NCBI GenBank assembly: GCA_013178095.1
Contig: JABLXK010000007.1
Span: forward strand, 1-64,000
Origin: Anaerolineae bacterium
Lineage (GTDB): Bacteria > Chloroflexota > Anaerolineae > Anaerolineales > Anaerolineaceae
Direction of reading: 5' to 3'
Length of the DNA: 64,000 bases
Part shown: positions 6,564 through 63,240 of the stretch, piece by piece
How the letters are laid out: every line of letters starts with the position of its first letter
How positions within the stretch are numbered: position 1 is the first letter of the stretch
Position numbers and translations under genes: made by a program
Notes under the pieces: model-generated
Told to the model about the DNA's origin: nothing
The model's input: only the letters and a program-made list of their open reading frames with translations
Database searches by the model: none

Positions 6564-7277
6564 TTAATCGTCATCAGGGGTTTTAGTGGGAGACGGATAG
6601 GTGTACGTAACTGCCAGATAGAAACGGCAGAATATGTCACCATTGTCGTTGACAATACCCCATTGCGAAACTTTCATCTTGCTGAATGGATGAGTCGGCA
6701 TCTGGAAATCAATCGTGATATCCACTGTTTCGTAGGGATCGACGTCTTCGGAGAATTTGTACAAATGCTTCGGACTCCAATCCGAGTCCTCGGTGGATTC
6801 GTCCTCGATCCAGGTCACGTAATATTCGTCTTTATCCCAGGTCACCAATCCGGTGTTCTTCACCGTCCAGACGCCATCGAAAATCCACCCGGTCATTTGC
6901 GGGCCGTCCCAAGGAGTTTGGTTGACAATCTCGCATTTATAGACGTCTGGCGTATAGGTAGGAATTTTTGTTTTAGATGAACTGCCGCCGCTCGAGCTGC
7001 TGCTTGAGCTGCTGCCGCCGCTGTAAACCACCTTCACGGTTGGGGTTACCGTGCTGAGCGTGGCAGTGGGCAAGGGGGTCATCGTGGGTGGCACCGGAGT
7101 AGCCGAAGGGTTCAGCGCCGCATCCACGGTGAGCTGCGCCATGGCTTGCATAACGGCTTCGGTTTGGATCGCGGCCACATCCGGGGTGGGTTCCTGGCTG
7201 GCACCGCCGCAGGAAGTCAGCAACAGCATCCCCGCGATAATGATCCCCAAGCTTACTGATTTCATACTTTTAACCAT
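6564..7277 (-). CDS. Lipoprotein with NBR1-like Ig domain
   Basis: A 237-residue secreted protein. A lipoprotein signal peptide ends in the lipobox LLLTSCGG (Cys about residue 23), so the mature N terminus should be lipid-anchored on the outer face of the membrane. Residues 40-75 are rich in Thr/Pro, followed by a serine/glycine run near 80-100 that forms a flexible linker. The C-terminal half (GWIFDGVWTVKNTGLVTWD, then YDIT-like strands and FSKMKVSQWGIVNDNG) resembles the Ig-like domain first described in human NBR1 and common in Chloroflexota extracellular proteins. The start has an excellent ribosome binding site (GGAGGAAAA). Its partner or ligand is unknown; it is monocistronic and divergent from a GGDEF gene. 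Confidence 0.75.
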   Translation of the reverse strand: MVKSMKSVSLGIIIAGMLLLTSCGGASQEPTPDVAAIQTEAVMQAMAQLTVDAALNPSATPVPPTMTPLPTATLSTVTPTVKVVYSGGSSSSSSSSGGSSSKTKIPTYTPDVYKCEIVNQTPWDGPQMTGWIFDGVWTVKNTGLVTWDKDEYYVTWIEDESTEDSDWSPKHLYKFSEDVDPYETVDITIDFQMPTHPFSKMKVSQWGIVNDNGDIFCRFYLAVTYTYPSPTKTPDDD

Positions 7278-59725: not shown

Positions 59726-60883
59726 TTAATAATTTGTGAACACGTGTGTGATGGCGGTGGAGGCGGGGCCGCCCAGGGCTTGCAGGACGGCTGTGCGCAC
59801 ATCCGGCACCTGGTTCCCGCCAGCCTGCCCGCGCAACTGCATCACGGCTTCGACCGCCTGGTAAACGCCGGCCGCGCCCAGCGGAAAACCGCGCGCCTTA
59901 TTGCCGCCCATGGTCAGCAGCGGCAGCCTGCCCCTGGAGCTCAGGTCGTTTTCCTGCAGCCAGCGCCAGCCCTCGCCGCGCGCGGCAAACCCGCAGGCTT
60001 CCAGCGTTAAAACTCCATAGATGGAGGCGGCATCCCATAATTCGAAAAAGCTCACGCCGTCCCAATCCAGGTTCGCGTTCTGCAGCGCTTTGAGCACGGA
60101 TTGCGCGGCGGCGTTGAACGCCAGCGGATCGGGGCGGTCGTGCAGCGCCAGGGCATCGATGGATATGGTGGAGGAGGCGATACGCACCGGTTTCACCTGT
60201 CGGCTGCGGAAGAGCACCTTGTCGCTGACCAACAGCAGGGCAGCCGCCCCATCTGCATAGGGAGCCACGTCATACAGGTTGAGCGGGTCGCACACCAGCG
60301 GCGCGCGGTCGTAGGCTGCCTGGTCAATTGCCTTGCGGTACATGGCGTGCGGGTTATGCACGGCGTTGGCGTGCGCCAGCAGCGGCAGGACAGAGAAAGC
60401 GGCACGGGGAGCCTGGTAAAGGTCCAGATAGCGCTGCATAAGCATGCCCGCCAACCCGTTGGGGGTCAGGCCCTGCGTACTCTCGAAATCGAAATCAGCA
60501 GCTTGCGCCACGATCCCGTCCACTTCCGGGCCGACCATGTCGGTGTATTTTTCCACGCCCACTACCAGGGCGGATTCCACCAGGCCGGATTTAATTGCCA
60601 GGTAGCCCAGGCGCAGGGCGGCTGCGCCGGAAGCCTCGCCGGCTTCGGTTGTGAAGGTTTCAATGCCCTGCAAACCGATGTCGCTGGCCAGGCGCCCGCC
60701 CAAATTGGCCTGCTGCGAAAGAGAGGACGCCAGCAGGTTGCCCACGTACATGGCCTGCGGACGCATTACGCCCGCCTCGCGCATGGCCGCCAGCATAGCT
60801 TTGGAGGCCAGATTTTCCAGGGTAAGCTCCCAATGCTCCCCCACCGGAACGGCGCCGACTCCCGCAATGATGACTTCGCTCAC
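59726..60883 (-). CDS. Thiolase-superfamily protein of the mevalonate operon, catalytic residues replaced
   Basis: A 385-residue archaeal-type thiolase homologue, third gene after HMG-CoA reductase and synthase. The fold is clear: ALVVGVEKYTD, APYADGAAALLLVSD and the C-terminal GGNKARGFPLGAAG. However, where archaeal acetoacetyl-CoA thiolases have the nucleophile in EAACASGG, this protein reads EAGEASGAA (Glu instead of Cys, residue about 83). The usual HD in the middle motif is WD (ELWDAASIYG), and the GHP of the C-terminal motif is GFP. All recognised catalytic Cys and His residues are therefore missing. It may be structural, like the partner proteins in archaeal thiolase/HMGS complexes, or use a different chemistry. 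Start GTG follows AGGTAGGG. Confidence 0.85.
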   Translation of the reverse strand: MSEVIIAGVGAVPVGEHWELTLENLASKAMLAAMREAGVMRPQAMYVGNLLASSLSQQANLGGRLASDIGLQGIETFTTEAGEASGAAALRLGYLAIKSGLVESALVVGVEKYTDMVGPEVDGIVAQAADFDFESTQGLTPNGLAGMLMQRYLDLYQAPRAAFSVLPLLAHANAVHNPHAMYRKAIDQAAYDRAPLVCDPLNLYDVAPYADGAAALLLVSDKVLFRSRQVKPVRIASSTISIDALALHDRPDPLAFNAAAQSVLKALQNANLDWDGVSFFELWDAASIYGVLTLEACGFAARGEGWRWLQENDLSSRGRLPLLTMGGNKARGFPLGAAGVYQAVEAVMQLRGQAGGNQVPDVRTAVLQALGGPASTAITHVFTNY

Positions 60884-60889
60884 GATACC

Positions 60890-61963
60890 CTACCTCATCG
60901 CGATCTTGCCGCGGTAGCGGACATAAGTGGCGTAATCGATCTCCACACGCCGTGCGATATATTGGGCAGTCGAGGTCGCCAAAGACCGGTACTTCTCCAA
61001 CCGATCGGTTACGCGCAAATCCAGCGCGTCAGAACCGGCGCCGGAACCGTAGGAGACCACCAGGATGCGGTCGCCCGCTTTGGCCTCGTCCAGCACGGCA
61101 GTAAGGCCAATGGGGGAAGCCGCCGCGTAGGTATTGCCGATCATCGGCGCCAGCAGCCCGGTTTTGATTTGCTCCGCGCTAAAACCCAACTGCTTGGCCA
61201 CTCGTTGGGGAAACTTGGTATTGGGTTGATGGAAAACGGCGTAGGCATAATCGGCCGCCGTGGTGCCGCTGGCTTCCATCATGGTTTTGGCTGCCGTGGA
61301 AACGTGCTTGAAGTATGCCGGTTCACCGGTGAAGCGCTGGCCGTGTTCGGGGTAATGCTGGTAGGCGCGCCGCCAGAAATCGGGGGTATCCGTAACAAAA
61401 GAATAGGTGGAAATGATCTCGACCAGCGATTCTTCAGCCGGCCCCAGGATAAAGGCAGCCGCGCCGGCCGCGGCGGTGTATTCCAGCGCGTCACCGGGCT
61501 TGCCCTGCGCGGTATCCGCGCCGACAGCCAGGGCGTAATCGCCCATGCCGGAACCCACCAGCGCAATGGCCATCACCATGGCTTCCGTGCCGGCTTTGCA
61601 GGCGAATTCCATGTCGGCCGCCTGGATGTTGGGCGCAGTGCCGATAGCTTCCGCTACGATGGTGGAGCTGGGTTTGACCGCGTAAGGATGCGATTCCGAG
61701 CCCACCCAAACCGCGCGCAGCTTGCGCGGATCGAGGGCGGAACGCGCCAAGGCGTTGCGCGCTGCTTCGATGGACATGGTGACCGTGTCTTCGTCTAAAC
61801 CGGGGACGGATTTCTCCTTAATCGGCAGGCCCTCGTCCGAACCGCCCCACATGCGCGCCACTTCCGTGGCGGGCAGGCGGTACTGCGGCACGTAAGCGCC
61901 GTAGCCAACAATGCCCACCGGGCGGTTTGGTTTTAACAGCAAAGAATTCGATTCAGGGTTCAC
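60890..61963 (-). CDS. Hydroxymethylglutaryl-CoA synthase, archaeal type
   Basis: A 357-residue HMG-CoA synthase that joins acetoacetyl-CoA and acetyl-CoA. The catalytic residues are in place: Glu in [16 protein letters not shown] near 94-109, Cys in [13 protein letters not shown] near 126-138, and His in [14 protein letters not shown] near 235-248. The N-terminal [15 protein letters not shown] is also typical. The archaeal form is shorter than the eukaryotic one and works in complex with thiolase in methanogens. Start GTG overlaps the HMGR stop by 4 nt (GTGA) with GGAGGG upstream. The thiolase-like gene follows after 6 bp. Confidence 0.95.
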
Positions 61964-63240
61964 TTGGCCCTCCAGCTTTCGATAATTTCCAGGGCGCGTT
62001 GAATGTGGATCTTGCCCTCGTTGATCATTTGCTCCGATACGGCCGCCACCATGTCCTCCGGCGCACCGGCCGCAATTGCCACCTGGCGGGCATGCAGCGC
62101 CATGTGCCCGCGCTGAATGCCTTCGGTCGCCAGGGCGCGCAGTGCGCCCAGGTTTTGCGCCAGCCCGACCGAAACGATCACCTCGGCCAGTTCGGCGGCG
62201 GTCTTCACACCCATTAATTGGATGGCCGCGGCCGCGCCTTTGTGCACGCGCGTGGCCCCGCCTACGATCCCGACCGCCATGGGCATTTCCAGGCTGCCCA
62301 GCAGGCTGCCGTCCTCACCCTTTGACCAGGTACTCAGGCTGGTGTAACGCCCGCTGCGGGCGGCGTAGGCGTGCGCGCCGGCTTCCACCGCGCGCCAGTC
62401 GTTTCCGGTGGCAATCACCACCGCGTCCACGCCGTTCATGATGCCCTTGTTATGGGTGGCCGCGCGGTAAGGGTCCGCCGCGGCGAATGCCCAGGCTTCA
62501 ATGATGCGATCACGCACTTCGGCTCCCGTGTAATTGTTGAATGCCAGCGCCTCTTCCGGGATGCGGCATTGCGCGCGCGCCAGCCGGCGGTCCGCCAGGT
62601 TGGACAGGATGCGCAGCAGCACACGCCCGCCGCTGATGCGTTCGACCTGCGGCGCCAGGCGTTCCAGGGCGGTATTAATGGCGTTGGCGCCCATGGCGTC
62701 GCGCACGTCCATGATCAGGTGCAGCACGAGGAACGGCCCGATGGGCGATTTCTCGATCAGGCGCACCTGCAAATCGCGCGCGCCGCCGCCCAGCTTGAGC
62801 AGCAGCGGATCGATCTGGTTCGCTTCCGCCAGCAAGCCCTCACGCTGGGCTTCCAGGGCAGCTTTAGCCTGCTGCAGGTCGGGGACATCCAGCACTTGCA
62901 TCTGCCCGATCATCTCGGGAGCAGTTGCGGAAGCAGTGAAACCGCCGCCGGCGCGCGCCAGGCGCGCCATGAAAGAAGCAGCCGCCACCACCGAGGGTTC
63001 TTCGATCACCATCGGCACAGGTACTTCCCGCCCATTGATGAGGAAATGCTGCGCAACGCCCATGGGCAGGGCGTACGTACCCACCACATTTTCGATCATG
63101 TGATCGGCCTGCGCCAGGTTTAGTCCGTCCGCTCCGCTCAGCGCATCCAGCGCGGACTGATCCAGCGAGGTTTGCTCCGCCAGCTGCGCCAGGCGTTCGG
63201 CCGGGGTCATTTCGTAAAATTTCTTGTTATATTCTTCCAT
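61960..63240 (-). CDS. Hydroxymethylglutaryl-CoA reductase, class II
   Basis: A 426-residue bacterial-type HMG-CoA reductase. Motifs are [17 protein letters not shown] near 50-66 (HMG-CoA site, Glu), [19 protein letters not shown] near 172-190 (NAD(P) site), [20 protein letters not shown] near 262-281 (Lys and Asp), and the C-terminal [19 protein letters not shown] near 388-406 with the catalytic His. It converts HMG-CoA to mevalonate using NAD(P)H. It is the first gene of the operon and probably the rate-setting step. No strong promoter was identified in the 400 bp before it. Confidence 0.96.

Follow-up and report, generated by a model that had tools for sequence, protein, structure and literature searches.

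The archaeal complex of thiolase and HMG-CoA synthase (HMGS), solved from Methanothermococcus (PNAS 2018), is reported to be explained by channelling via a shared CoA site, and CoA in this complex binds where thiolase, HMGS and a DUF35 protein meet (PMC6392133). PhlA, the HMGS-like subunit of PhlACB, has no catalytic Cys and Glu and is thought to be necessary for the complex; acyl transfer relies on residues of PhlC alone, and the enzyme is functional only if the whole phlABC operon is expressed (PMC6392133). The function proposed for T. brucei SLP, one of the solved thiolase-fold proteins, is that of an aldolase (PMC12329534). PMC3857490 deals with the mevalonate pathway of Chloroflexi in its later steps, and the word 'thiolase' is absent from the passages of it that we examined. 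In the open-access literature searched, we found no earlier description of a Cys-less thiolase beside HMGS; most subscription journals lay outside this search.

Here we compare these systems with the mevalonate operon of an Anaerolineae genome, found in a stretch of 64,000 nucleotides that was analysed as a whole (the window). The operon is located on contig 21 of an assembly of 2.94 Mb that is 94% complete, and its features are as follows.

59726..60883, minus strand: pseudo-thiolase (thiolase fold, without the catalytic residues), 385 aa, last operon gene in the window genome
60635..60637, minus strand: codon of Glu83, at the position of the nucleophilic Cys (Cys85 of 6esq_A), by alignment
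60035..60037, minus strand: codon of Trp283, at the position of the HDAF His (His284 of 6esq_A), by alignment
59885..59887, minus strand: codon of Phe333, at the position of the GHP His (His336 of 6esq_A), by alignment
60890..61963, minus strand: HMGS of the archaeal type (PRK04262 / TIGR00748), with Glu90, Cys122 and His245 present
61960..63240, minus strand: HMG-CoA reductase (HMGR; PF00368; TIGR00532), first operon gene

The thiolase-fold reading frame starts with GTG, contains no internal stop and follows HMGS after a gap of 6 nt, and the start of HMGS overlaps the HMGR stop (61960) by 4 nt. The HMGS scores above the cut-offs for archaeal HMGS. The DUF35 gene (PF01796) lies outside the operon in the window genome (G000), about 28 kb onward on the same contig (G000:C21:91988-92173), and carries four zinc-ligand-like Cys residues. 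As a separate observation, a fragment at G000:C21:90995-91084 (L096 ~7029-7184) corresponds to part of this DUF35 gene with a 94% match; it is a partial duplication, about 1 kb from the full gene, and adjoins an open reading frame that resembles a HigA-type antitoxin by eye.

To describe the window protein, we compared it with thiolases of known structure. It belongs to the family PF22691 (125 bits) / PF00108. Among solved sequences it is closest to 7yvy_A, a thiolase of Pyrococcus furiosus (E 2.5e-76); 6esq_A, the thiolase chain of the archaeal complex, is matched with an E value of 1.3e-41. The AlphaFold model, with a pLDDT of 91.6, has as its top hit the thiolase subunit of the HMGS complex (6esq/6et9; Z 60.3, 1.5 Å over 382 residues), and 7yvy ranks lower (Z 57.5) despite its closer sequence. 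A thiolase fold is thus predicted by the model. In the alignment to archaeal thiolases, Glu83, Trp283 and Phe333 replace the nucleophilic Cys, the HDAF His and the GHP His, respectively, and the C-terminal GGSG/GGTG motif has become GGPA. Neither AcCoTHIOL_METTL (233.6 bits, cut-off 600) nor PRK06064 (315.7, cut-off 420) is reached by the score of the protein. The nucleophilic Cys and both His residues that define an acetoacetyl-CoA thiolase are therefore all missing. A preliminary description of the locus had listed three replacements (Glu for Cys, Trp for His and GFP for GHP) in a protein that keeps the thiolase fold within an operon with an intact HMGS and HMGR; the replacements held exactly as described, and the fold and operon setting held by alignment, fold model and HMGS residues.

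The loss is not restricted to the window genome. We collected an order-level set of 61 genomes: the window genome plus 60 others of the same genus, family and order. Relatives were found in 61/61. HMGS or the adjoining stretch was missing, cut or not fetched in 12 of these genomes, which remained unscored. The Cys is absent in 47 of the 49 scored HMGS-adjacent thiolases, and its site is occupied by Gly (26), Glu (14), Asp (3), Gln (2), Asn (1) or Ser (1). Among the 47, the first His is retained in 13 and the second in one, and one sequence is cut by a contig end. In a species-wide scan, 60 of the best 80 loci are also without Cys. The cultured Leptolinea tardivitalis YMTK-2 (L108) has the dead operon form together with an intact paralog elsewhere. 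According to the preliminary description, its reading would have been refuted by close homologues that keep Cys and His; this is not what the 47 of 49 show. It had also asked whether Glu, Trp and Phe are conserved, and they are not, since this combination is confined to 7 of the 49 order-level operon thiolases. The Cys and His sites drift freely, so loss of function fits better than new catalysis, and a conserved new catalytic triad is rejected because many different residues occupy these sites.

The operon setting is conserved around the altered protein. We refer to an HMGS-linked operon thiolase without Cys as a dead slot, of which there are 47 in the order-level genomes. HMGS is located less than 100 nt from the thiolase in 44/47 dead-slot genomes, HMGR within 1.5 kb in 40/47 and a DUF35 gene at no more than 1 kb from the thiolase in 34/47, in most relatives close downstream of it. 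No DUF35 was found in the fetched flank of 9/47 dead-slot genomes, some of which are cut by contig ends. HMGS, thiolase and DUF35 are thus encoded together in most of the dead-slot genomes, although the window genome has its DUF35 gene away from the operon. The class-wide order is HMGR-HMGS-thiolase-DUF35, which corresponds in gene content to the archaeal thiolase/HMGS complex. None of the 61 order-level genomes has an IspH above the cut-off; therefore, mevalonate is probably the sole isoprenoid route.

Regarding the source of acetoacetyl-CoA, PF22691 is represented twice in the window genome, by the operon copy and by an intact paralog at G000:C7:32240-33388 with the motifs SACSSG, HDAF, GHPVGATG and NIGGSGSN. 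The paralog is also the sole PF02803 match and the only intact thiolase found in this genome. It belongs to the same family as the pseudo-thiolase and is 42% identical to it; unlike the operon protein, it has full motifs and no adjoining HMGS. The proposal of the preliminary description that another thiolase supplies acetoacetyl-CoA is met in so far as a second intact thiolase exists, whereas the supply itself is inferred. A Cys-bearing paralog outside the operon is present in 37/47 dead-slot genomes (the copy in G002 is cut by a contig end), and a classical thiolase (E <1e-40) in nine of the ten dead-slot genomes without such a paralog, the remaining one (G035) being 80% complete. One or the other is found elsewhere in 46/47 dead-slot genomes. 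On one contig (G040 C177), the genes for HMGS, a dead thiolase, DUF35 and a second thiolase, which is intact, follow one another. An intact operon thiolase occurs in just two of the scored order-level genomes (G037 and G051), and neither has a separate thiolase of the family. In a set of 30 genomes, the 11 Cys-less ones have a second Cys-bearing copy (five), a Cys-to-Thr paralog alone (three) or none (three), and among the 19 with an intact operon copy just one (G066) has a second full-length copy (>=50%), which adjoins an HMGS-like gene. A second Cys-less paralog outside the HMGS operon was observed in G038, G039, G057, G058, L255, L256, L257 and L258. It shows Thr at the nucleophile position (AATATGAA-like) with both His residues intact (HDAF, GHPIGATA), and as this Thr-type paralog is found in several families, it could be a genuine enzyme that catalyses a different reaction.

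We then compared the residues under constraint. The dN/dS values of the Cys-less operon thiolases are 0.03-0.17 (nine pairs), similar to those of intact operon thiolases (0.08-0.16, six pairs); several dS values exceed 1, hence the estimates are rough. Strong, long-term purifying selection maintains the Cys-less protein. The two intact groups, operon thiolases and outside paralogs, share 101 positions conserved at >=95% in both. In the Cys-less group, 65 of these are kept at >=90%, 19 are intermediate and 17 fall below 50%, the last including C83, H283, H333, S373-G374 and eight sites within 113-145. The bulk of the fold is therefore retained and the catalytic residues are shed. If the 113-145 loop lines the CoA site, the shared CoA site may possibly be gone. 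Positions conserved specifically in the operon Cys-less group are only four (15, 148, 181 and 376), so conservation of an interface is barely supported. The catalytic Cys, Glu and His of HMGS are present in 152/152 locus copies, with overlapping loci counted more than once. Judged by residues, and from sequence alone, HMGS would be catalytically competent and the thiolase subunit would not, and its loss of activity is likewise an inference.

To follow the loss across the class, we sampled 150 Anaerolineae genomes, found HMGS in 132 and fetched 60 HMGS loci from 46 families. A thiolase adjoins HMGS in 55/60, and five loci have no thiolase in reach. The Cys is present in 40 of the 55 operon thiolases and absent from 15, which represent 12 of the 46 families. 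A PF02803 match at E <= 1e-20 occurs in 15/15 Cys-less versus 33/40 Cys-bearing class genomes, and within this sample no significant link was found between Cys loss and a classical thiolase (Fisher p 0.17). Seven class genomes lack a classical thiolase and have a single match to the intact paralog, and the operon Cys is kept in all seven. HMGS loci without a thiolase in reach include L294, L317 (f52), L304 (f60) and L306 (f62), whose genomes have matches to the intact paralog elsewhere; in f62, two DUF35 matches follow HMGS.

The pooled set comprises 173 sequences, with some genomes counted twice and a few sequences at contig ends without HMGS in view. All three catalytic residues are kept in 59, the Cys is lost and both His are kept in eight, the Cys and GHP His are lost in 55, all are lost in 48, and three show other states. 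The first His is present in all 60 Cys-bearing sequences. Seven kinds of residue occur at the Cys site and eight at the first His. These nested states fit a progressive decay, which we consider likely, in which the nucleophilic Cys was followed by the GHP His and then by the HDAF His. As an observation on a single family, L297 (f39) has an operon thiolase with the Cys kept and GNP in place of GHP (CHN); this form is possibly an early decay step or else a variant that still works. It neighbours f27 in the tree, and there the Cys is gone (DHH).

The thiolase-only tree was built without the motif columns from 85 rows. The Cys state needs five changes on this tree, of which at least four are forced by starred branches. 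For the concatenation of thiolase, HMGS and DUF35, 22 of these rows were left out (the archaeal row, four for which no operon HMGS sequence was available, G037 and 16 near-duplicates), and its quick tree needs seven changes, at least six of them forced. In the AU test, a single Cys-less clade is not rejected on the thiolase-only tree (p 0.29; p 0.27 with an earlier 28-row set) but is rejected on the concatenation tree (p 3.6e-6). A single origin of all Cys-less forms is thus rejected by the operon tree and not by the thiolase-only tree. Repeated silencing of the operon thiolase is likely but not proven, and the same conflict between trees could arise if the thiolase gene had been replaced inside operons. 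The main Cys-less group, which includes the window protein, forms one clade (support 100/99) with L163 outside, and this clade nests among intact operon thiolases of other lineages of the class. The intact outside paralogs form a clade of their own, together with the operon copies of family f2. From this placement among operon thiolases, the ancestor of the window protein was most likely a thiolase that already belonged to the operon. In f2 (L050 and L045), the gene order is HMGS-DUF35-thiolase and not HMGS-thiolase-DUF35; its thiolase falls in the clade of outside paralogs, which suggests that the operon copy was replaced.

The reading that we favour is that the pseudo-thiolase persists in a structural role, as a subunit of a complex with HMGS and DUF35. 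The loss of Cys and both His, the operon position, the purifying selection, the intact HMGS and the other thiolase are shown, as is the fold by a predicted model. The physical complex and the lack of activity are inferred, so that the reading as a whole is likely and not established. In this view, the operon thiolase would have lost its Claisen chemistry and would remain as the thiolase-shaped subunit of an HMGS/thiolase/DUF35 complex, still docking on HMGS and DUF35. The docked protein would complete or stabilize the HMGS active site or the CoA-binding site, and may hold DUF35 and HMGS together. A different thiolase, which in the window genome would be the G000:C7 paralog, would make the acetoacetyl-CoA, and this would reach HMGS by diffusion. 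The nucleophile would have been lost first, the GHP His second and the HDAF His third, in lineages that had another thiolase. Several findings count against this reading: the f2 HMGS runs beside an intact paralog; f52, f60 and f62 have no thiolase near HMGS; DUF35 is unlinked in the window genome; and conserved residues of 113-145 are lost. The preliminary description had proposed a silent thiolase as the scaffold of an HMGS complex, and this is supported, with complex formation and inactivity remaining inferences. A bolder reading, which we are slightly more inclined to doubt than to accept, is that the thiolase was silenced repeatedly in Anaerolineae (at least four to six changes of the Cys state forced on the two trees) and kept in the operon under purifying selection, with the lasting role of the complex being to build a working HMGS, for which the thiolase is an obligate structural subunit, and not the channelling of acetoacetyl-CoA that is argued for archaea.

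Among the alternatives, the pseudo-thiolase could be the inert half of a heterodimeric thiolase with the intact paralog, tuning that enzyme or docking it to HMGS. Thiolases of this fold are generally dimers, and the pairing of a chain-length factor with a ketosynthase is a precedent for an inert half. The Cys-bearing paralog present in 37 of the 47 dead-slot genomes is also in favour of this model. However, 10/47 dead-slot genomes have no Cys-bearing paralog of the family, the only match to the intact paralog in some Cys-less genomes of the class sample (for example G098, G102 and G107) is the operon copy itself, and in the window genome the intact copy lies apart from the operon. We consider the heterodimer unlikely. 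A second alternative is a neofunctional enzyme that uses other residues, comparable to the Cys-less aldolases Ltp2 and Sal, which need a DUF35 partner. Thiolase-fold aldolases with DUF35 do exist (PMC12329534), and 8/173 pooled sequences keep both His with the Cys changed to Asp, Gly or Ala, for which altered chemistry is conceivable. Against this, the catalytic Tyr/Cys or paired Tyr of the Sal/Ltp2 type (YDCY / YDHF region; Tyr302 and Cys304 in Sal) is absent, and WDAA is found at what we infer to be the corresponding motif of the window protein. No consistent replacement of the triad is seen, with seven kinds of residue at the Cys site and eight at the first His, and the partner gene is HMGS and not a hydratase. 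Since neither the Sal/Ltp2 motif nor any other replacement is conserved, an aldolase-type neofunction is improbable. Still weaker is a regulatory subunit that binds acyl-CoA: it would detect acetyl-CoA or acetoacetyl-CoA and gate HMGS, with no chemistry of its own. In the archaeal complex, CoA is bound where thiolase, HMGS and DUF35 come together (PMC6392133), and most conserved fold positions are retained; however, the loss of the 113-145 loop residues and of the GGSG motif argues against a preserved thioester pocket, as do the bulky Trp and Phe that the window lineage has in place of the two His, making this role very unlikely. Lastly, a pseudogene, frameshift or assembly error, which has nothing in its favour besides the missing residues, is rejected and all but excluded by the full-length stop-free frame, the absence of Cys in 47/49 and the dN/dS of 0.03-0.17, so that where the preliminary description took the replacements for a real change of role and not a reading error, the error is excluded and a loss of chemistry is favoured.

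Returning to the structural-subunit reading, we compared the pseudo-thiolase with the known systems. ST0096 of Sulfolobus tokodaii (4yzo_A) and T. brucei SLP (5AB4-7) are solved matches in the thiolase fold, and ST0096 also has no Cys at the nucleophile site of the alignment. Unlike the pseudo-thiolase, neither is known to be encoded with HMGS. PhlACB (PpATase) is similar in having HMGS-like, thiolase-like and DUF35 subunits and in retaining one dead catalytic subunit; as a precedent, however, it is the mirror image of the window operon. PhlA is dead and the thiolase-like PhlC (Cys88) works in PhlACB, and in the window operon HMGS is intact and the thiolase is dead. A PhlACB-type acyltransferase is rejected for the window operon, as the arrangement of an active PhlC-like with a dead HMGS-like subunit is reversed.

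If this gene were annotated as acetyl-CoA acetyltransferase, the first mevalonate step would be credited to a protein that is incapable of it by its residues. The question can be tested at the bench, since the cultured L. tardivitalis YMTK-2 has the dead operon and the intact paralog. The archaeal thiolase/HMGS complex shares with the window operon the class-wide gene set and the archaeal-type HMGS, and its thiolase is the top structural match of the model. It differs in that the thiolase of the window operon has neither the Cys nor the two His; a direct hand-over of its own acetoacetyl-CoA is thus not expected. A channelled reaction that has been deleted, with the subunit and the operon kept, is a natural test of why the complex exists. 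If the reading is true, the channelled reaction is gone and the subunit is retained in a large bacterial clade, and channelling would not be the sole reason for a complex of the archaeal kind.
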